Source: a virus. Taken from it: a DNA stretch of 39,747 bases. A program made the translations under genes and the position numbers. This document shows, one piece after another, positions 17,827 to 28,813 of this stretch. The stretch lies in IMG/VR virus record IMGVR_UViG_3300017992_000005, positions 1 through 39,747 of that record; one strand, 5' to 3'. The notes beneath the pieces were generated by a model. It made no database searches and was not told the DNA's origin. It worked only from the letters and a program-made list of their open reading frames with translations. Position 1 is the first letter of the stretch. Every line of letters begins with the position of its first letter.

Positions 17827-18744
17827 TCACAGCATGTGGTCCACCGGCGACGCCTTGCGGTGGGCATCGCTCAGGTCGGTCTCGGCCAGGTCCAAGTAGC
17901 GGCGCAGGACGGTAAGGTCGCTGTGACCCATCAGCCGTTGCAGGTGGTAGATAGACGCTCCGTTGCGCAGCATCTCAATGGCGAACGTGCGCCGGAACCC
18001 GTGCGCCGTGATCTTGACCCCGCTCCGCTCTGATAGCCGCTCGAACATCTGCCGCAAGCCCCAGTAGCGCAGCGCCTTGCCCCTCTGGTCCATCCACGCA
18101 GGTGCATCGTCTAGCAGGCCATCGCGTTCGCGCCAGTAGCGAATCAGCTCTCGGCGCGTTCGCGGTCCGAGGTAGACCATGCGGTCCTTGCCTCCCTTGC
18201 CTTGGTGCACCATGACGTTGCCGGTACCCAGGTCGATGTCTCCCACGGTTAGGCCCAACGCCTCGGAGGCACGCAAGCCGGTATCCAGCAACACGAGCAC
18301 GATGGCGCGGTCTCTCTGCTGCTTGCAGGCTTTGAGGATGGCGCGCAGTTCGGTGGACGTGTACGCGGGTAGGATGGTCTGCGGCACCTTGGGCATATCC
18401 ACGCGGGCCATGGGGTTAGAGTCGGCAAACTCTTCCCGCTGGCAGAAGATGCAGAACGTTTTGATCTGACGAGCATAGATGTGGACGGCGGCGGGTTTGA
18501 GCCCTCGCTCTTTCTGCGCCACCAGGAACGAGCGGATGTGGTGCGAGGTGATCTGGTTGGGGGTACTGACGCTCTGCTCTCTGAGGTAGGCGACAAAGCG
18601 GGGCAGGTGTGCCCGGTAGTATCGCAGCGTGGACGCGGTGACGCCTTTGGCCTGGCGCGAGACGATGAACGCCTGATAGGCCAGCGTCAGGATATCGCCG
18701 GGCGCGTCGAAAAGCGTCTGCTCTCTTTGGGTCATCCGAGGCAC
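17827..18744 (-). CDS. int: Tyrosine recombinase integrase
   Basis: 305 residues if translation begins at GTG 18744, which has AGGGG nine bases upstream; TTG 18753 and ATG 18735 are alternatives. The N-terminal SAM-like domain (about 12-105) carries LAYQAFIVSRQAKGVTASTL. The catalytic domain has all key residues: Arg158 (GLRASEAL), Lys183 or Lys186 (QGKGGKDR), His248-x-x-Arg251 (HGFR), His274 (LMGHS) and nucleophile Tyr283 (RRYLDL). It resembles XerC/D-type phage integrases. It ends at the bidirectional terminator and lies next to attP-like DNA, so it should integrate this phage at the tRNA-Thr locus. Confidence 0.95.
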   Translation of the reverse strand: MPRMTQREQTLFDAPGDILTLAYQAFIVSRQAKGVTASTLRYYRAHLPRFVAYLREQSVSTPNQITSHHIRSFLVAQKERGLKPAAVHIYARQIKTFCIFCQREEFADSNPMARVDMPKVPQTILPAYTSTELRAILKACKQQRDRAIVLVLLDTGLRASEALGLTVGDIDLGTGNVMVHQGKGGKDRMVYLGPRTRRELIRYWRERDGLLDDAPAWMDQRGKALRYWGLRQMFERLSERSGVKITAHGFRRTFAIEMLRNGASIYHLQRLMGHSDLTVLRRYLDLAETDLSDAHRKASPVDHML

Positions 18745-18748
18745 AAGA

Positions 18749-18793
18749 CACAACCCCTAGTGCGCCGATGATCTCAGCATACTAGGGGTTGTG
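18749..18793. promoter_or_regulatory. Inverted repeat at the integrase start (operator or integrase arm sites)
   Basis: CACAACCCCTAGT at 18749-18761 and its perfect reverse complement at 18781-18793 flank 19 bases. The left arm overlaps the integrase ribosome site and possible start codons, so binding there would block integrase expression. The core CCCCTAGT recurs at four other control regions. Confidence 0.7.
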
Positions 18794-18809
18794 GTCGGCA
18801 GAAAGGATT

Positions 18810-18849
18810 GCTTACGAAGCGTCTGCTCTGCCGATTGAGCCAGGGTGGC
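18810..18849 (-). other. attP: attP-like site containing the 5' half of tRNA-Thr(CGU)
   Basis: Read on the minus strand from 18849, the segments are acceptor GCCACCC, TG, D-stem GCTC, D-loop AATCGGCA (with the conserved GG), GAGC, A, anticodon stem GACGC, and loop TTCGTAA with anticodon CGT (Thr). Homology ends after the next GC; there is no T-arm or 3' acceptor half. A tRNA fragment beside an integrase is a classic attachment core. Carrying the 5' half and not the usual 3' half is uncommon. Confidence 0.8.
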
Positions 18850-18893
18850 TTGCGTACTACTACTGATAGTGTGTGGCTGCGATGTTGGCCCTA

Positions 18894-18901
18894 CCCCTAG
18901 T
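18894..18901 (+). promoter_or_regulatory. CCCCTAGT operator-like site, upstream of the half tRNA
   Basis: CCCCTAGTGTGCCG here differs by one base from the copy at 18754 (CCCCTAGTGCGCCG). A GATAGTGTGTGG motif lies nearby at 18865-18876. Both motifs recur together at 20308-20341 and 21711-21731. Confidence 0.55.
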
Positions 18902-18994
18902 GTGCCGCAATCTTGGCACCCTCTCCCGATTTGGCCGTGGCGTCTGCTCTGTTTTCAGCCCACAGGTCGCCACGACTGGCAAGATTGTACCACG

Positions 18995-19584: not shown

Positions 19585-19746
19585 CTAGGCAATACGACGC
19601 ACCTCACGCAAGTGTGCTTCCACCATCTCTCGCACGTAGGCGCTCCCCAGCACCAACCCGCATTCGAGACGCGTTATCGCGGTGCGCAAATCGGCATCGG
19701 GCATAGTTGACAGGCGCGTTCGCAGCCTATCAAGTGGTTTGGTCAT
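19585..19746 (-). CDS. Small helical protein
   Basis: 53 residues from ATG at 19746, with AGGAG nine bases upstream; an earlier in-frame start would lie deep in the repressor gene. It overlaps the repressor end by 17 bases. All helical (DADLRTAITRLECGLVLGSA) with many Arg and Glu. No family recognised. Confidence 0.55.
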   Translation of the reverse strand: MTKPLDRLRTRLSTMPDADLRTAITRLECGLVLGSAYVREMVEAHLREVRRIA

Positions 19747-20299
19747 GGCTTTCGCTCTCCTGGGGGGTTGGCGCATTGGCATCCTCGTTGAAGTCCAGCG
19801 TGTCTGCGTCACCGATTAGATACGCGATATAGCGCTCGCGAACATGGGGGGGCATTTGCAAGGCTGTCTCTTCGAGGGCGTCAACGAGCACGGAGACCCG
19901 CTCGCGGAGGGGCATGTCGGCCCACGGCGGCTCGGGGCGTGGCGGCTGCTGCATCTCGGCGTAACCGAGCATCGCGTCGAGGGCGCCGAGGACGAACCCC
20001 TGCATGTTAGGCTCGAGCTGGGCGAGGCGATCCATGCGGCGGGTGAGGTCGGGCGCGAAGCCACTCGGGCCGGTGCGGATGTAGCCCGCGGCCATGAGCA
20101 GGTCGGCGTCGGTGGCGCCGAGAACATCGGCAAGCGCCGCTACAATATCGGGGCCTGGCAGCTTGACCGTGCCCGTTTCGATCTTGCTCAGATAGCCGCG
20201 CTTGATCGAGACACCATGCCTGGACGCCATTTGCGTGACGACCTGGCCCTGGGTCAAATCACGAGCTTCGCGCAGCTCGAGAACTCTTCTTCCTAGCAC
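19730..20299 (-). CDS. XRE-family repressor (CI-like)
   Basis: 189 residues from GTG at 20299; GGAGGAGA lies just upstream, which makes this start better than the GTG at 20311. The N-terminus is a classic XRE helix-turn-helix (LREARDLTQGQVV, then RGYLSKIETGTVKLPGPD). The rest is helical with no visible peptidase dyad, so it would not be an autocleaving LexA-like repressor. Its promoter region carries both operator motifs, suggesting autoregulation. It is divergent from the ribbon-helix-helix genes, forming the likely lysis-lysogeny switch. Confidence 0.85.
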   Translation of the reverse strand: MLGRRVLELREARDLTQGQVVTQMASRHGVSIKRGYLSKIETGTVKLPGPDIVAALADVLGATDADLLMAAGYIRTGPSGFAPDLTRRMDRLAQLEPNMQGFVLGALDAMLGYAEMQQPPRPEPPWADMPLRERVSVLVDALEETALQMPPHVRERYIAYLIGDADTLDFNEDANAPTPQESESHDQTT

Positions 20300-20307
20300 T
20301 CTCTCCT

Positions 20308-20351
20308 CCACACACTATCTTGATTATACCACGCCCCTAGTGATTTTCCAG
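20308..20351 (-). promoter_or_regulatory. Repressor promoter with two operator motifs
   Basis: On the minus strand: -10 TATAAT (20328-20323) extended by TGG, weak -35 CTGGAA (20351-20346), 17-bp spacer. CCCCTAGT at 20334-20341 lies in the spacer, and GATAGTGTGTGG (minus strand, 20319-20308) covers the predicted start of transcription. A protein bound at either site should control repressor synthesis. Confidence 0.75.
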
Positions 20352-22415: not shown

Positions 22416-22581
22416 TTGGACGCAGTACGTGCGAGACGTGGAGAGCATGATCTTGGCCTACGTGCCCGAGTCCGAACATCTTGGCTTCTGGCGCGCTGGC
22501 GGGATCGCCTTCGCCCGTGATGAGCAAGCCGCCAACGAGCTGCGCGAGTCGTGCGAGATAGCACTATGCTGCGCGGCGTAG
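22399..22581 (+). CDS. Small hypothetical protein
   Basis: 60 residues; GGAGG lies seven bases before the ATG, inside the previous gene. Helical with WTQYVRDVESMILAYVPE. Overlaps both neighbours. No family recognised. Confidence 0.5.
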   Translation: MSSAPDWTQYVRDVESMILAYVPESEHLGFWRAGGIAFARDEQAANELRESCEIALCCAA

Positions 22582-23267
22582 TGATTGACACCCGCGAGCC
22601 TCCCTGGTGCCAGCAGTTGACGCCAGGGGGGCTCAAGGTCGCCACGAGCGCACTCAGCGCCGGCGATGCTTGGCTGGCCACTGACGACGCCATGATCGTG
22701 GTAGAGCGCAAGACCCTCCACGACTTGATGGGATCCATTGCAGACGGGCGCCTGCTCAACCAGGCCGCCGCGATGCGCGCCACCGGCAAGTGGGCCTACC
22801 TTGTGGTCGTGGGCCTGCCCACAGTGGTGCGGGGCGTCTTGGTGCTCCGTGGCAAGCCGACGCAATGGCAGTGGCGCTCCGTCCAAGGGGCCTTGCTGAC
22901 CGTTCAAGAGCTGGGCGTCGGCGTCGCGTGGTGCGAATCTGACAAGCAATACGCCGAGACGTTGGAGTGGATCGCAAGCCGCAGCCGCGGGCCAGCGCGA
23001 ATCGAGGCGCGCCGCGAAGCCGTGATCGAGACCCCGGCCGAGCGCATCTTGAGCGCGCTCCCTGGCTTGGCATCTGGGCGAGTCGGATCGCTGCTCAAGC
23101 ATTGCGGATCCCCCGCATGGGCGCTCGACTATTTGACGAGAACACAAAACGAGGGCGGCTCTGTACCGGGCATAGGGCCAGCCACAAAGGCGGGCGTCAG
23201 GTCCGCCATGGGCCTGCCTGCCGATATGCGGTTGGCGGTAGTAATGGAGGATGAGGGAGATGAGTAA
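22566..23267 (+). CDS. ERCC4/XPF-type nuclease
   Basis: 233 residues from ATG at 22566 (GTG at 22551 is possible). The N-terminal domain has the XPF/MUS81 nuclease signature: IDTREPPW, then GDAW (Asp34) and VERKTLHDL (Glu47, Arg48, Lys49). Residues about 160-225 look like tandem helix-hairpin-helix (LPGLASGRVGSLLKHCG, SVPGIGPATKAGV), the DNA-binding end of this family. It likely cuts branched or flapped DNA during phage recombination. It overlaps RecT by 8 bases. Confidence 0.85.
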   Translation: MLRGVVIDTREPPWCQQLTPGGLKVATSALSAGDAWLATDDAMIVVERKTLHDLMGSIADGRLLNQAAAMRATGKWAYLVVVGLPTVVRGVLVLRGKPTQWQWRSVQGALLTVQELGVGVAWCESDKQYAETLEWIASRSRGPARIEARREAVIETPAERILSALPGLASGRVGSLLKHCGSPAWALDYLTRTQNEGGSVPGIGPATKAGVRSAMGLPADMRLAVVMEDEGDE

Positions 23268-23994
23268 CGAACTTGTGCCAGTGAACGGTGAGACATGGCA
23301 GGTCATTCAGTCGGTCGCGCCCGTCGTGCAAGCATCGCGGATGTTCGGCGTCACTGAGGAACAGGCCGCAGTCGTGATGCTCAAGGGCCATGAGCTGCAA
23401 CTGGGGCTCGCGTCGGCGTTCGAGTTTATCCACGTGATCGACTCCAAGCCGAGCATTTCGCCCAAGGGCGCGCTCGCGCTGATCCAAAAGTCCGACCACT
23501 TGATGGGGCTGAGCATCAAAGACGAGGTAGACAGCAAGGGCGAGCCGTCGGCTTGTACGGTGACCATGCGCCGCGTCGGTGGGTTCGAGTACACCTGCAC
23601 GTACACGATGGCGGACGCCCAGCGCGCCGGCGTCATCAAAGCGGGCAGCGCGTGGGAGAAATATCCCGCCAATATGCTGCGGTGGCGCGCTGTGGGCTAC
23701 TGCGCCGACGTGGTGTTCCCGGATGTAATCGGGGGGCTGTATCGCCCTGAGGAGTTGGGCGCCACGGTGAATGCAGACGGCGAACCCCTGAAAGAGGTCG
23801 AGGCCGCACCTGCCGTGCAGGTTATTGACGTGACACCGACCGAGGTGCCTCAAGTCGCGGCACAGCTCACCATCGCGGACATCATCGCGGCAGGGTTCAC
23901 CGCCGAGCAGATCGTGGCCGCCAACGAGGGGACGATTCCCTCAACGAGTGAGGAGTGCAGCGCAGTGCTCGAAGCGCTCCAGGTGGCGGCATAA
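23260..23994 (+). CDS. recT: RecT-family single-strand annealing protein
   Basis: 244 residues from ATG 23260, overlapping the nuclease end. The family pattern is clear: MLKGHELQLGLASAFEFIHV, SKPSISPKGALALIQKS, then VGGFEYTCTYTMADAQRAG and WEKYPANMLRWRAVGYCADV. RecT anneals complementary strands for phage recombination. The C-terminal third is an acidic tail with TIADIIAAGFTAEQI. The neighbours supply nuclease activities, giving a complete strand-annealing set. Confidence 0.85.
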   Translation: MSNELVPVNGETWQVIQSVAPVVQASRMFGVTEEQAAVVMLKGHELQLGLASAFEFIHVIDSKPSISPKGALALIQKSDHLMGLSIKDEVDSKGEPSACTVTMRRVGGFEYTCTYTMADAQRAGVIKAGSAWEKYPANMLRWRAVGYCADVVFPDVIGGLYRPEELGATVNADGEPLKEVEAAPAVQVIDVTPTEVPQVAAQLTIADIIAAGFTAEQIVAANEGTIPSTSEECSAVLEALQVAA

Positions 23995-24755
23995 TGTTAG
24001 ACCACCTCAGCTATTCGTCAATCAGCACATATCAGCTCTGCCCGCGATCTTGGAAGTATCGCTACATCGACAAGCCGCGGGTGCCCACCTCGCCAGCGCT
24101 CGTATTCGGTAGCGCGTTTCACGACGCAATCGAACGCGCCATGATCGAGGGCGAGCCGCCCGCCAAACTTTGGGCGGAATCGTGGGAAGACCAACTTAGC
24201 GACGGGCGCAATGCGGTCATTGATTGGGGCGACAAGAGCGAGCCCGAAATGAGAGAGCTGGGCGCGCGGATGTTCGCCGCCTCCGAGGTTGCTGCGCAAG
24301 TCGCCACGATCAAACCCCTTGTCATTGGCGGGGAGCCCGTGATCGAGAAGCGCGTCGAGATGCGCGTCCCTGGGGTTCCGGTGCCCATCATTGGGTACAT
24401 CGACGTTATCACCGAGGATGGGGTGCCTGGGGACTTCAAGACCTCGGCCCGCAAGTGGAACGCCTCGAAGGCGCGCCAAGAGACGCAGCCCATCTTCTAC
24501 CTCGTAGCTCTCAATCAGGAAGGGTGGGAGCACTCGCCGGATCTGCGATTCCGGCACTATGTGTTCACCAAGACCAAGTCGCCGGCAGCCCAAGTATTCG
24601 AGACGACACGCAACCTGAACCAGATGGTAGGACTAGCCGAGATCGTTGTCGGCGTTTGGAAGAGCATCGAAGCGGGCGCGTTTCCTTGCAACACGACGAC
24701 TTGGAAATGCAACCCCAAGTGGTGCTCGTATTACGATCTCTGCCAGGGGTTCTAG
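23994..24755 (+). CDS. PD-(D/E)XK nuclease with Fe-S cluster cysteines (RecB/Cas4-like)
   Basis: 253 residues, sharing one base with the RecT stop. YSSISTYQLCPRSWKYRYI at the start is the typical N-terminus with the first cluster Cys (Cys16). The active site is Asp137 (GYIDVI), Asp147-x-Lys149 (GDFKTS) and Gln165 (ETQPIFYLVAL). Three C-terminal Cys (CNTTTWKCNPKWC, DLC) complete a probable 4Fe-4S cluster as in AddB/Cas4. It would resect DNA ends to give RecT its single strand. Confidence 0.88.
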   Translation: MLDHLSYSSISTYQLCPRSWKYRYIDKPRVPTSPALVFGSAFHDAIERAMIEGEPPAKLWAESWEDQLSDGRNAVIDWGDKSEPEMRELGARMFAASEVAAQVATIKPLVIGGEPVIEKRVEMRVPGVPVPIIGYIDVITEDGVPGDFKTSARKWNASKARQETQPIFYLVALNQEGWEHSPDLRFRHYVFTKTKSPAAQVFETTRNLNQMVGLAEIVVGVWKSIEAGAFPCNTTTWKCNPKWCSYYDLCQGF

Positions 24756-24757
24756 CG

Positions 24758-25567
24758 ATGCGCCGCCCGCAGTATGCCACAATTGACCCCGCGCCGGGGG
24801 GGCTCGCATTTCGCAGCTCCTACGACGCTGGCCTGGTGGCAGCGCTCAAGGCCAAAGTGCCGCACAGTGACCGCCGCTGGGACGCTGAGGGGAAGCAATG
24901 GGTCGTGGCTCCGCAACACGCCGCCATCCTGGCGGATCTTGCGGCCACCTATCTCGGGGTGCATGTGGATGTGCCCCGAGATGTGGCCGCCCCTGCAGCA
25001 ACGCAACGCATGATTCGCTTGGAGTACTTGGGCGCCGCAAAAGATCGCGGCGGCGAATCGACCGCCTCGGGGTGGGTCGATGGCGGCTGGAATGCCATCT
25101 TCCCCTTGCCAGTGTTGCAGCGGTGGTTCTGCGTTGAGACGCGCCCCGATGAGGCGCCCACCATGTGGGGGATCTTGGGGCTGCCCAAGAGCGCAACCGC
25201 CGCTGAGGTCAAGAGCGCCTATCGACGGCTCGCCCGCCAGTGGCATCCCGACGTGTGCAAGGAGCCCGACGCATCGCGGCAGTTTATGGCGATCCAAGAG
25301 GCATACCGCACGTTGAGCGACGCCACCAAGAGGGCGCGCTACGAGGCTGGGTTGCAGCTCACGGCGGGCCTAGATGTGGTGCAAGGCGCGTCAGTCTGGC
25401 GTCCACCGCTGCGGTGCGGCTGGCTGCTTGTCGAGGCAGTCGAGCAGGTGGGGCGCTTCGTCGTGAGGCGCATCAAGCAGTGGGAGGATATTCGCAACAA
25501 TCAAGGGCTTGTCCTGGTGTCGTACTGGCCGCAAGGCGCGACCAAGTTCGCCACGAGGTGGGCATGA
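24758..25567 (+). CDS. HARP-like / J-domain fusion protein
   Basis: 269 residues from ATG 24758, two bases after the nuclease stop. Residues about 17-68 (SSYDAGLVAALKAKVPHSDR, WDAEGKQWVV) resemble the HARP-type motif of annealing helicases. Residues about 136-198 are a J-domain: GILGLPKSATAAEVKSAYRR, with the HPD triad at 163-165 and FMAIQEAYRTLSD. J-domains stimulate DnaK-type ATPases, so it could recruit host DnaK to a phage DNA complex. The C-terminus (about 215-269) is beta-rich and unknown. Linkage of the two domains is the novelty. Confidence 0.82.
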   Translation: MRRPQYATIDPAPGGLAFRSSYDAGLVAALKAKVPHSDRRWDAEGKQWVVAPQHAAILADLAATYLGVHVDVPRDVAAPAATQRMIRLEYLGAAKDRGGESTASGWVDGGWNAIFPLPVLQRWFCVETRPDEAPTMWGILGLPKSATAAEVKSAYRRLARQWHPDVCKEPDASRQFMAIQEAYRTLSDATKRARYEAGLQLTAGLDVVQGASVWRPPLRCGWLLVEAVEQVGRFVVRRIKQWEDIRNNQGLVLVSYWPQGATKFATRWA

Positions 25568-25577
25568 GGTGATCGAT

Positions 25578-25620
25578 GCGGCTGGGTGGTTTATCCGGGC
25601 TGGAACGGCTACCCAGCCGC
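25578..25620 (+). promoter_or_regulatory. Intergenic hairpin
   Basis: GCGGCTGGGT at 25578-25587 pairs perfectly with ACCCAGCCGC at 25611-25620 around a 23-base loop. No T-run follows (GTTCTCT). It lies between the J-domain gene and a small membrane gene, so it may be an attenuator or an RNA-stability element. Confidence 0.6.
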
Positions 25621-25639
25621 GTTCTCTACAGGAGGCGAC

Positions 25640-25720
25640 ATGTTACCTGAGTTCATCTTTGCACTAGCGGTGTTGGGGTTGCTCGTCTGGCAGGCGAAGA
25701 CGTGGCCGGGGAGGGGCTAG
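25640..25720 (+). CDS. 26-residue membrane microprotein
   Basis: ATG at 25640 with AGGAGGCG six bases upstream. It encodes a single hydrophobic helix (LPEFIFALAVLGLLVW) and a short basic end (QAKTWPGRG). Very small, but with a strong ribosome site and open junctions on both sides. Function unknown. Confidence 0.55.
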   Translation: MLPEFIFALAVLGLLVWQAKTWPGRG

Positions 25721-25722
25721 CG

Positions 25723-26283
25723 ATGACCACAACTGCCATGATAACAGGTTCTGTGGGCGCGGTTGCCCAACGCGAGGGACGCCCACTTGCGGAGTCGTTC
25801 CTCAGCGTGGATGCAATCATCTTGGTTGACGTCTCGGGCTCAATGGCAAGCCATGACGCGCCGGACGGCAGGAGCCGCTACAAGGCTGCCTGTGACGAGC
25901 TGGCCACGATCCAGGCAGCCAATCCCGGCAAGGTCGCTGTTGTGGGGTTCTCTGATCGCGTCGAGTTCTCCCCAGGCGGGGTGCCCACCTTTCAGTCGGG
26001 CGGCACCGACATGGCGGCGGCGCTGAGGTTCGTCAAGGTAGCTGATGGCCTCGGAATCAAGCTGATCCTACTCAGCGACGGGATGCCGAACGATGAGGCG
26101 TCCACACTCACAGTGGCCCGCACGTTCGATGCCAAGATTGACACGGTTTACATTGGCCCCGAGAGAGGGCGCGGCCAAGCGTTTTTGCAGCGGCTTGCAG
26201 CAGCAACAGGCGGTCGCTCTCTAGCCACGGATGAGCCCGCGATGTTGGCGGCGCCCGTCCAATTGCTACTCGCGGCGGCCTAG
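25723..26283 (+). CDS. von Willebrand factor A (vWA) domain protein
   Basis: 186 residues from ATG 25723, two bases after the microprotein. The metal-ion-dependent adhesion site is intact: DVSGS (36-40), GGTDM (threonine near residue 91) and LLSDGMPND. A complete small vWA domain with no signal peptide, so cytoplasmic. In bacteria such domains mediate protein interaction, often with AAA+ ATPases; here the next gene is an ATPase/helicase, which makes a helicase accessory role possible. Partner unknown. Confidence 0.82.
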   Translation: MTTTAMITGSVGAVAQREGRPLAESFLSVDAIILVDVSGSMASHDAPDGRSRYKAACDELATIQAANPGKVAVVGFSDRVEFSPGGVPTFQSGGTDMAAALRFVKVADGLGIKLILLSDGMPNDEASTLTVARTFDAKIDTVYIGPERGRGQAFLQRLAAATGGRSLATDEPAMLAAPVQLLLAAA

Positions 26284-26359: not shown

Positions 26360-27661
26360 ATGACAACGCAGACCAAAACCGCTACCGTCACAGAAATTGG
26401 GCGCCAGTATGTGGCCCGCAATCAAGGCACACTCATCTATTCGCGCTCTCAGTGGTGGCGCTGGACGGGCCAGGTCTGGGCGCCCGTCCATGACCTTGCC
26501 CAGCGCGCCGAGTTCTGGCGCCTGCTCGAAGAGTTCGAGGCAAAAGACCACCAGAAGCCATCGCTGAGCAAGTGCCTCTCGGTGCATGACTATGTGCGCG
26601 CCAAGGTGTTTGTTCCCGAGGAACAGCTCGATGCGGCAACCAACCTAATCAACCTCCAGAACGGCGTGTTCAACCTGCACGACTGCCAGCTCTACCCTCA
26701 CGATTCGAGCTTTTATCTGACCACGGTCTTGCCGTTCAACTATGACGAGTTCGCGCGCACCAACATGTGGGACTTGTATCTGATCACCTCGTTTGTGCAT
26801 CCGCGCAGCTCGACGCACGACCAAGAGTTGATTGACTTTGTGCAGGAGGCCATCGGGTATTCGCTCACCACCGACGTTTCGCAGCACGTGACCTTCTGGT
26901 GCATCGGAGAGGGTGCCAACGGCAAGGGCGTCTTGTTCCACGTCCTGGAGCAACTCGCCGGGACCGCCGCGATTGCACTCAACGTGGGCTTGCTGCGCCG
27001 CGAGCAGTACCAGCTCGCCACACTTGCCGGTAAGCGGATCGCCCTTTGTAGCGAGGCATCATCCACGGAGAACTTGGTCGAGGACGCCATGATCAAGGCG
27101 CTAGTCAGTGGTGACACCATGAGCGTGCGCCAGATTCGCAAAGAGCCCTTCGAGCTGCATCCCACGGCCAAATTGTGGTGGGCCATGAATGAGCTACCTG
27201 CCGTCTCTGACACCTCTGAGGGATTCTGGCGGCGGATGCGCGTGATCCCGTTCAACCGCTCGTTTGACGAGAATGAGCGCATCCCCGACCTCAAGGCACA
27301 ACTCGACGGCGAGCTCTCGGGGATCTTCAACTGGGCGGTCAGAGGGTTGCAACGCCTTCGCAATCGCGGCCAGTTCGACGAGCCCACGCAGGTTCAACAG
27401 GCAACCGAAAAATACCGCCGCGAGTCGAACCCTCTGCGCTTGTTTATCGAGGACAAGTGTGACGTAGGTGATACCTATTCCGTCTCTTCGTCGGCCATCT
27501 ACAGCGCCTACAAGGACTGGTGCCACGACTGCGGGTTCCGCAATCTCAGCATCAAGAACTTCAAGAAAGAGATGGAGCGGCTTGCGTTCTACGCGACGCG
27601 CCGCAATACGGGCGTGACCTACGACGGCTTGAAGCTCAACCTTGGCGCCACCTGGCCCTAA
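26360..27661 (+). CDS. D5-type primase-helicase (superfamily 3 helicase)
   Basis: 433 residues from ATG 26360 with GGGGGAG upstream; earlier in-frame starts run into the vWA gene. Residues about 90-175 (ATNLINLQNGVFNLHDCQLY) are the D5 N-terminal region. The Walker A is GEGANGKG (183-190); ALCSEASS is the likely Walker B region and LWWAMNELPAV the sensor/motif C. The C-terminal end (about 370-433) holds a small DNA-binding-like domain. It lacks a primase domain of its own; the primase is encoded beyond the origin at 28001. It would unwind DNA at the adjacent iterons. Confidence 0.9.
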   Translation: MTTQTKTATVTEIGRQYVARNQGTLIYSRSQWWRWTGQVWAPVHDLAQRAEFWRLLEEFEAKDHQKPSLSKCLSVHDYVRAKVFVPEEQLDAATNLINLQNGVFNLHDCQLYPHDSSFYLTTVLPFNYDEFARTNMWDLYLITSFVHPRSSTHDQELIDFVQEAIGYSLTTDVSQHVTFWCIGEGANGKGVLFHVLEQLAGTAAIALNVGLLRREQYQLATLAGKRIALCSEASSTENLVEDAMIKALVSGDTMSVRQIRKEPFELHPTAKLWWAMNELPAVSDTSEGFWRRMRVIPFNRSFDENERIPDLKAQLDGELSGIFNWAVRGLQRLRNRGQFDEPTQVQQATEKYRRESNPLRLFIEDKCDVGDTYSVSSSAIYSAYKDWCHDCGFRNLSIKNFKKEMERLAFYATRRNTGVTYDGLKLNLGATWP

Positions 27662-28000
27662 AAGGTGTAGGGAGTGTAGGGACGCTAAATCTCCCTACAC
27701 TAGCCTAAGCACTACAGGTAGTGGTTGAGATAGTGCAACAGCACTACAGGTAGTGGTAGGTGTAGGTAGTGTAGGTAGTGTAGGGTTATTGTTACATACA
27801 TTGTATGTAAGCGGTTCATACACCTATATATATATATGGTATGGAGCGTTTACCCTACACTCCCTACACTTATTGCACCAGCTACTAGGGATAGTGGTAC
27901 GAGATGGTGAAGCATACTATAGGTAGTGGTTAGGCATGTTTTGTGGTCAAATCGTTTCCCTACACCTCCCTACACTCCCTACACTGAAAGAGGATCAATC
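27662..28000. other. Iteron-rich intergenic region, candidate replication origin
   Basis: 339 bp with no gene. Eleven GTGTAGG-type iterons, five forward and six reverse, occur in clusters spaced 9 bp apart (10 bp once). Two exact 17-bp repeats of GCACTACAGGTAGTGGT (27709-27725, 27741-27757) plus an imperfect one near 27913 are also present. A perfect palindrome (27792-27810) and an AT tract (27825-27837) lie in the middle. The last cluster ends 16 bases before the primase gene. Layout between helicase and primase genes is typical of a phage origin. Confidence 0.75.
27792..27810. repeat. Perfect palindrome in the origin region
   Basis: TTACATACA (27792-27800), a single T, then TGTATGTAA (27802-27810). 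Nine-base arms with one central base. It sits just beside the AT tract and between inverted iteron clusters; a dimer-binding site is likely. Confidence 0.8.
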
Positions 28001-28813
28001 GTGAGCCCAATCGAGGCAGCTCGCAGGTGGCGTCATCTAGGCATAGCAACGATCCCTTGCTGTGCGAGGTCAAAGCGGCCCGCCATTGACAGTTGGCGAC
28101 AGTACCAGTCGGAATTGCCGTCATCGAGGCAGCTTGAAGTGTGGTTCGCGTCGGGGCGGTATAACCTCGCCGTGGTGACTGGGTGGCGTGGACTCGTCGT
28201 CCTGGATTGGGATGACATCATGGCTTATTCGAGGTGGCTGATGGCCCTCGATGGCGAGACAGCCATGATGGTGGGGGGGACGTATCGAGTGCAGACCTCG
28301 CGGGGAGTGCACCTGTACTTCTACTCGCACGAAGAAACACAGTGTGCCAGAGGCGACGGGTGGGACATCAAAGCGGGCGGGGGGTACGTCTTGGGGGCGC
28401 CAAGCGTTCATCCATCAGGGGCGGTCTACACGCCTCGGGGCGAGACCAAGGATATCGTCGAAATTGCCTCGATATGGGATCTCGTCGAGCGGCCGCCAGC
28501 GCCTATCCAGGCCGCCAGAGAGATTGTGCTGGAGGATCCATTCGACGCCGCGATGAGGCCCGAGAGCGCGGGGGTGTCGATTGAGGATGTCAAGCGCCGA
28601 CACTCTGTGGCCGAGTATTTCGGACTCGGGGCTTTGACGCGATATCAGATGGTGCGGTGTCCATTTCACGACGACCAGCACCCGTCATTGGCAGTCTACC
28701 CCGACGATCATTGGCATTGCTATGTGTGTCAGGCCCATGGTGGCGACGTGATTGATTTTTACACCCGCCTCAAGGGCATCACAGTTCGTGAAGCGTTGAG
28801 AGAGCTTGCGTAA
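28001..28813 (+). CDS. PrimPol-CHC2 primase
   Basis: 270 residues from GTG 28001 with AGAGG upstream; ATG-like starts earlier run into the iterons. Residues about 5-165 form a bifunctional primase/polymerase (PrimPol) domain: VVTGWRGLVVLDWDD with Asp69 and Asp71, and RGVHLYF with His104, plus WDIKAGGGYVLGAPS. Residues about 200-262 are a CHC2-type zinc finger with Cys220, His223, Cys240 and Cys243. CHC2 is usually attached to DnaG-type TOPRIM primases, so its C-terminal fusion to PrimPol is notable. It works with the D5 helicase at the origin. Confidence 0.88.
   Translation: MSPIEAARRWRHLGIATIPCCARSKRPAIDSWRQYQSELPSSRQLEVWFASGRYNLAVVTGWRGLVVLDWDDIMAYSRWLMALDGETAMMVGGTYRVQTSRGVHLYFYSHEETQCARGDGWDIKAGGGYVLGAPSVHPSGAVYTPRGETKDIVEIASIWDLVERPPAPIQAAREIVLEDPFDAAMRPESAGVSIEDVKRRHSVAEYFGLGALTRYQMVRCPFHDDQHPSLAVYPDDHWHCYVCQAHGGDVIDFYTRLKGITVREALRELA

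Follow-up and report, generated by a model that had tools for sequence, protein, structure and literature searches.

The window, by which we mean the whole stretch of 39,747 bases analysed here, is a virus record with terminase, portal and head genes as well as genes for an integrase and a repressor-like HTH protein, and by this gene content it is a temperate tailed phage. No ATP-cone protein or NrdR is encoded in it, and no homologue of ribonucleotide reductase (RNR), including the large subunit, was found in it. The locus of interest is the intergenic gap between the genes of a D5/SF3-type helicase and a prim-pol. This gap of 339 bp (27662-28000) is filled by repeats, and its GC content is 44%, compared to 61% for the genome. 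The genes and repeats that concern us first are as follows.

17827-18753, - strand: integrase gene
19730-20311: repressor-like HTH gene
26360-27661, + strand: D5/SF3-type helicase, presumed origin-binding initiator (Pfam D5_N, DUF5906, Pox_D5)
27665-27680, + strand: left outer iterons GTGTAGG, two copies, 9-bp step (sequence count)
27694-27700, - strand: single reverse iteron within the left outer cluster (sequence count)
27760-27784, + strand: left inner iterons GTGTAGG, three copies, 9-bp step (sequence count)
27792-27810, no strand: 19-bp palindrome TTACATACATTGTATGTAA, perfect except for an unpaired central base
27796-27840, no strand: AT-rich segment with TATATATATATA, the presumed unwinding element and the lowest-GC 40-bp stretch of the region
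27854-27869, - strand: right inner iterons, two copies, 9-bp step (sequence count)
27959-27984, - strand: right outer iterons, three copies, steps of 10 and 9 bp (sequence count)
28001-28813, + strand: prim-pol with a CHC2 zinc ribbon and a GTG start (Pfam Prim-Pol, Zn_ribbon_DnaG)

Among solved structures, the SaPI5 primase-helicase is the closest to the helicase in sequence (E 8.8e-18). An AlphaFold2 model of the protein (pLDDT 92.7) matches the fold of the SaPI5 primase-helicase and of other D5-family helicases, and its C-terminal end forms a winged-helix-like domain. The prim-pol is 43% identical to its counterpart in the related phage L001. Shine-Dalgarno-like sequences upstream, together with the relatives, make it likely that 26360 and 28001 are the true starts of the helicase and prim-pol genes, respectively. 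The prim-pol, fused to its CHC2 zinc ribbon, is a separate gene on the opposite side of the proposed origin from the helicase, unlike in most relatives, where prim-pol and helicase are found in one protein or in neighbouring genes. The helicase gene is preceded at 22551-26283 by genes for an ERCC4-type nuclease, a RecT-like annealing protein, a 447-residue DnaJ-domain protein and a VWA-domain protein, which is unusual company for a replication origin.

The heptamer GTGTAGG has 13 matches in the 39.7 kb of the window, 11 of which lie within 27665-27984 and two outside the region, while shuffles of the window gave 2.4 matches on average and six at most. The copies start at 27665, 27674, 27760, 27769 and 27778 on the + strand and at 27694, 27854, 27863, 27959, 27969 and 27978 on the - strand, the first of them 4 bp past the helicase stop codon. 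The iteron consensus is RGTGTAGGG or a close variant, and the step within clusters is 9 bp, with 10 bp occurring once. The clusters face each other in opposite orientation around the 19-bp palindrome and an AT tract at about 27825-27840, and the whole layout is a near mirror image with its centre at 27819.5, between the palindrome and the TATATATATATA tract. About this centre, four of the five forward iterons have a reverse-iteron partner within 1 bp. A longer repeat, the 18-mer AGCACTACAGGTAGTGGT, occurs at 27708 and again at 27740, and is joined by a variant at 27913 and a fourth copy at 27881/27882. Counted as a 17/18-bp family, its four members (27709, 27741, 27882 and 27914) form two pairs, each 32 bp apart, which are mirror images of each other. 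Repeats and symmetry are direct observations.

A sequence-only reading of the region had proposed it as a probable origin of replication, and most of its description held: the repeats are real, forming opposed clusters around a palindrome and an AT tract, the forward iteron coordinates and the 9-bp spacing with a single 10-bp exception were correct, and the palindrome is perfect apart from its central base. Its reverse coordinates were one base low because CCCTACAC had been counted instead, and it listed 17-bp repeats at 27709 and 27741 with a variant near 27913, correctly, but missed the fourth copy. Its labels of helicase and primase for the flanking genes were confirmed by Pfam. An Rfam search of the region gave no match, a scan of the region for sigma-70 promoters and terminators found none, and a DNA-level search of the region against annotated phages was likewise without a match. 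On reading of the sequence, TTATNCACA, used as the check for DnaA boxes, is absent from the region. A classical iteron-plasmid origin of the RepA/Rep_3 type was rejected, as the adjacent genes encode a D5 helicase and a prim-pol and TTATNCACA is lacking.

Phages with helicases 50-57% identical to that of the window have a matching region after the helicase gene. Copies of GTGTAGG are present in L073 and L071, both of which also have a reverse copy at the place equivalent to 27694-27700 of the window. In L072 the iteron is GTGAAGG (read as CCTTCAC) with spacings of 9 and 11 bp, and in L001 ATATTGCAG repeats with a 9-bp step occupy the place of the window's GTGTAGGTA repeats. The comparison of these four phages shows that step and place are kept while the iteron sequence changes. 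Absence of the repeats from relatives with the same helicase had been named as an outcome that would refute the origin; the repeats are present, in L001 with a different iteron sequence. With the iterons masked, pairwise alignment was significant for L073 only, and DNA conservation outside the repeats is therefore weak. A helicase search of genome contigs and a prim-pol search of viral contigs yielded no new relatives.

To see the arrangement on a wider scale, we analysed 87 loci with homologous helicases, mostly 25-35% identical and including a few near-duplicate contigs, taking the best 7-mer word of each locus. The densest 7-mer cluster starts within -100 to +700 of the helicase stop in 38 of the 87 loci, against 5.6 expected by position, and the same-strand spacings in those clusters are 9 bp (48), 8 bp (12), 10 bp (10) and 11 bp (12). 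About half of the D5 loci yielded no iteron cluster by this densest-7-mer method. A stricter test, which required an exact 7-mer tandem pair and a mirrored tandem pair with the same step, was passed by 23 of 90 D5 loci and by 5 of 80 control loci, and four of the five control positives are records that themselves carry a D5/DUF5906 helicase. The step is 9 bp in 17 of the 23 D5 positives, nearly all of which have the repeats at the 3' end of the gene.

The same association was reached from the DNA side, by retrieving records with GTGTAGGNAGTGTAGGNA and checking them for DUF5906. The domain was present in 19 of 24 records with at least four clustered GTGTAGGNAGTGTAGGNA copies, in 2 of 26 with an isolated match, and in 5 of 50 records found by a control pattern of permuted letters. 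Many of the 19 records belong to one group of related viruses and are not independent cases. Because the control pattern matched more contigs than the iteron pattern (112 vs. 67), raw pattern counts are not evidence, and only the link to DUF5906 is. DUF5906 was assigned with the Pfam model; a custom helicase HMM missed a divergent DUF5906 group. Placement at the helicase 3' end across the family is thus established, and the 9-bp geometry, the commonest spacing and one found mostly just 3' of D5-type helicase genes, is the rule in this family. The sequence-only reading had called this geometry unusual, which did not hold. Mirrored iterons of 9-bp step located 3' of D5-type helicase genes, with their sequence left free, could serve as an origin finder for many uncharacterised phages.

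Two side observations concern the iteron words. GTG/CAC occurs within 16 of the 38 words at helicase 3' ends, compared to 5.9 for letter permutations, and some prim-pols, such as that of pRN1, start primers at GTG; it is conceivable that iterons double as priming sites. In addition, three contigs retrieved by the control pattern (L168, L174 and L218) contain mirrored CTGTTCA pairs with a 10-bp step, in L168 just downstream of a D5-type helicase. This CTGTTCA word is one which we take to be similar to the repeat of phage P4 alpha.

Strand composition was analysed at fourfold-degenerate (silent) sites of + strand genes. The GC skew is -0.12 over the 8 kb to the left of the region and +0.12 over the 8.7 kb to the right, and the cumulative skew has its minimum at 28042. 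Of the block shuffles, 0.34% attained the observed range and 4.6% had their minimum no more than 1 kb from the region. The change of sign itself is shown; it may reflect an origin but does not prove one, and with 4.6% of shuffles doing as well the test is of moderate strength only.

Could the repeats instead be operators of the phage repressor or of another regulator placed between replication genes? Repeated operators are common in temperate phages, and this phage has the repressor-like HTH gene. Against this stand the link between repeats of this kind and D5 helicases across viruses, the precedent of Lactobacillus phage A2 described below, the skew change, and the fact that only two of the 13 GTGTAGG copies lie outside the region. 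We consider the operator explanation very improbable. By contrast, the proposal of a replication origin is well supported by the D5 helicase, the architecture of the relatives, phage A2 and the skew, and 27662-28000 is in all probability the origin of the phage, with the reservations that there are no replication or binding data and that the skew evidence is indirect.

The 17-bp repeats, listed by the sequence-only reading as a second repeat family, turned out not to be a second iteron. They have the dyad CACTA-N4-TAGTG and match paired boxes of NrdR, a repressor of bacteria that acts as a sensor of the dNTP supply. NrdR sites consist of two palindromic boxes about 31-32 bp apart (PMC2892513). 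In the presence of dATP and ATP, an NrdR tetramer binds two boxes about three turns apart; binding needs a C and a G separated by 9 bp in each box, the DNA is kinked by about 90 degrees at each box, and the boxes usually overlap promoters (PMC9110341). The four boxes of the window are given below.

27709-27724, no strand: NrdR-like box 1 (GCACTACAGGTAGTGG), left pair; weight-matrix pair score 15.1, the best of the window
27741-27756, no strand: NrdR-like box 2 (GCACTACAGGTAGTGG), left pair, 32 bp from box 1; conserved in L001, L071 and L073
27882-27897, no strand: NrdR-like box 3 (CTACTAGGGATAGTGG), right pair; pair score 11.3, the second best of the window
27914-27929, no strand: NrdR-like box 4 (ATACTATAGGTAGTGG), right pair, 32 bp from box 3; weight matrix

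All four boxes, and those of L001 and L073, are palindromic and have the conserved C and G at the required distance of 9 bp, and the separation within pairs is 32 bp in the window, L071 and L073 and 31 bp in L001. A search pattern consisting of the window box and a loose second box at 31-32 bp matched 113 stretches of bacterial genomes, 90 of which contain an RNR homologue, and ten out of ten neighbours of bacterial box pairs that were scanned with Pfam are RNR subunits. When the entire window was scored with a weight matrix built from these bacterial boxes, the two origin pairs took the top two places, above the highest score of 7.3 in 200 whole-window shuffles. With the same matrix, the best pair of the complete contig lies in the origin in L001 (10.9), L071 (9.0) and L073 (10.8), where shuffles reach up to 7.5. 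Since the matrix was seeded by a pattern derived from the window, absolute scores favour window-like boxes, but this does not apply to their position in the three relatives. Several of the comparison sets include related contigs, and single box matches in viral contigs, many of which are expected by chance, were not used as evidence. The contig of L072, whose helicase is 50% identical, has no NrdR pair above its shuffles, and at other D5 loci pair scores are at most 5.8, so that the pairs are limited to close relatives of the window and are not a property of the family.

Like the pairs of bacterial RNR operons, those of the window consist of two 16-bp palindromes at a distance of 31-32 bp, each with a C and a G spaced by 9 bp. 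Unlike them, they do not lie at an RNR promoter but inside a replication origin, and no RNR gene is nearby or anywhere in the phage. The match to NrdR sites is shown, and that the boxes are in fact NrdR sites is highly probable, although this rests on sequence and not on binding data. Because L001 kept the boxes and changed the iterons, the two elements are probably read by different proteins. In a phage without ATP-cone protein or RNR, the reader of the boxes would be the NrdR of the host; neither the host nor its NrdR has been identified.

Because NrdR boxes usually overlap promoters (PMC9110341), we considered that the region is an origin in which they control an internal promoter for the prim-pol, as they do at RNR genes. 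On reading of the sequences of L073 and L001, hexamers resembling TATAAT or TATATG are seen after the second box. However, a scan of the window region gave no sigma-70-like promoter, and this explanation accounts neither for the right-hand pair nor for the mirror symmetry, so we regard it as unlikely.

Box pairs also occur elsewhere. At 18748-18903 the window has two further, weaker NrdR-like pairs (18748 and 18857), each 31 bp apart and with scores of 9.0 and 8.3, above all 200 whole-window shuffles. They lie at the 5' end of the integrase gene, and the first of them is also a perfect inverted repeat. No integrase was found in the contigs of the relatives that carry NrdR pairs. Exact NrdR-like pairs 31-32 bp apart are present in 56 viral contigs (L513-L564, L329, L340, L347 and L375), without an RNR homologue within the fetched stretch; some are near prim-pol or primase-helicase genes (L523, L528, L547) and others near terminase genes. 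Iteron clusters near NrdR pairs in other phages are mildly enriched (18% vs. 7%).

These observations bear on a further explanation, in which the region is an origin and the boxes are a decoy without a direct role in firing. Two to four pairs per genome would titrate host NrdR, and as phage copies accumulate, the host RNR would be derepressed and dNTPs raised. In favour of a decoy are the lack of an RNR and an NrdR in the phage, the additional weaker pairs at 18748 and 18857, and the 56 other viral contigs with exact pairs and no RNR homologue in the fetched stretch. On the other hand, the position of a decoy should not matter, yet four phages have the top-scoring pair of their contig within the origin near the inner iterons, with the end of the pair roughly 4-14 bp ahead of these iterons in L001, L073 and the window. 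The decoy remains a possibility, and titration and a direct role of NrdR do not exclude each other.

We hypothesize that the region is an iteron origin of a D5 helicase that is coupled to the nucleotide state of the host through the NrdR boxes, and we assign this model as a whole a probability of roughly 0.8, in the absence of replication and binding data. According to it, the helicase encoded upstream would bind the RGTGTAGGG iterons, spaced by 9 bp, via its C-terminal winged helix, with one multimer on each side of the AT tract and in opposite orientation. The AT tract would then be melted and two forks started, both of them primed by the prim-pol encoded just downstream. Binding of the helicase to the iterons, melting and bidirectionality are all inferred. 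The two box pairs are placed symmetrically between outer and inner iterons, and host NrdR with dATP and ATP would bind them and sharply bend the DNA between these clusters. This may link the origin to the cellular nucleotide state, through either the shape and licensing of the initiation complex or titration of NrdR.

The sign and purpose of NrdR action are likewise inferred: it may license firing, repress firing, control a promoter or mainly be titrated, and without binding data a direct role at the origin can be neither favoured nor dismissed. By a narrow margin we prefer a bolder reading, in which NrdR sites are built into the origin and either let the nucleotide state of the host gate or shape initiation directly or, as part of the origin copies, titrate NrdR and raise dNTPs. 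The boxes would then be a conserved module that persists through changes in the initiator's iteron code. Phages depend on the supply of dNTPs, and here a phage lacking RNR seems to sense or sequester the RNR repressor of its host at the origin. If true, nucleotide sensing and origin firing would be directly linked, which can be tested with two purified proteins and one 339-bp fragment. No paper on NrdR boxes at a phage origin was found by title in the open-access literature searched, which, given the partial coverage, is weak evidence of novelty.

Among known replication systems, pRN1 and Bordetella phage BIP-1/BPP-1 share prim-pol, SF3 helicase and winged helix with the window. In pRN1 an essential region lies 3' of the replication gene, and BIP-1, which is near-identical to BPP-1, was reported to lack an iteron origin, with a stem-loop proposed in its place (PMC4234260). 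Applied to the window, this proposal would have the origin act as a large stem-loop, with iterons that are not protein-binding sites. Indeed, single-stranded DNA of the region folds much more stably than shuffled versions of it (z -8.9). However, the fold is a by-product of the inverted iterons, and single-strand pairing does not need a 9-bp step, yet the step is conserved while the sequence changes. Moreover, BPP-1 itself (NC_005357.1, L280) has mirrored 9-bp iterons: at about 26607-26709, TTTGCCTCG occurs twice with a 9-bp step and twice again in mirror image, on the two sides of a palindromic AT-rich stretch, 468-570 bp past the primase-helicase gene. A stem-loop is therefore a very improbable explanation, and an iteron-free origin of the pRN1/BIP-1 type was rejected for the window, where iterons are present with a spacing conserved in the family. 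Judged from its sequence alone, 26607-26709 of BPP-1 is likely to be an origin that was missed by the published repeat search in BIP-1, which would revise the published claim that BIP-1-like phages have no iterons.

The phage P4 alpha protein is, like the helicase of the window, an SF3 helicase with a winged helix. It binds short origin repeats, at ori1/crr (as cited in PMC4234260), as is inferred for the window, and differs in its fused bacterial-type primase domain. The P4 iteron sequence differs from that of the window. In Lactobacillus phage A2, a rep_origin is annotated 3' of the primase-helicase gene, with forward iterons, an AT tract and reverse iterons in the same order as in the window. 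Its iteron is ACGGGAGGAT, its spacing is less regular, and no NrdR pair was found in the A2 locus.

The closest resemblance is to the origins of SaPIs, with the SaPI5 Rep helicase (PDB 7ola/7om0), and of SCCmec, with Cch2. These elements have the same D5-type helicase with a C-terminal DNA-binding domain, for which the SaPI5 protein matches that of the window in both sequence and fold, and, as in the window, an origin of short iterons just after the helicase gene. In the SaPI and Cch2 helicases it is the C-terminal domain that binds the iterons, which lie immediately 3' of the respective helicase gene, and opposed helicase multimers on iterons with melting of an AT tract have been proposed for SaPI Rep and Cch2 (PMC7581432). 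The window has the corresponding features, namely a D5/SF3 initiator with winged helix, a downstream origin, and multiple short opposed iterons around an AT-rich stretch. Unlike SaPI and Cch2, it has a separate prim-pol gene across the origin, another iteron sequence, and NrdR-box pairs inside. By analogy, the region is best understood as a SaPI5-like origin at which a D5 helicase loads itself, and phage A2 provides a precedent.
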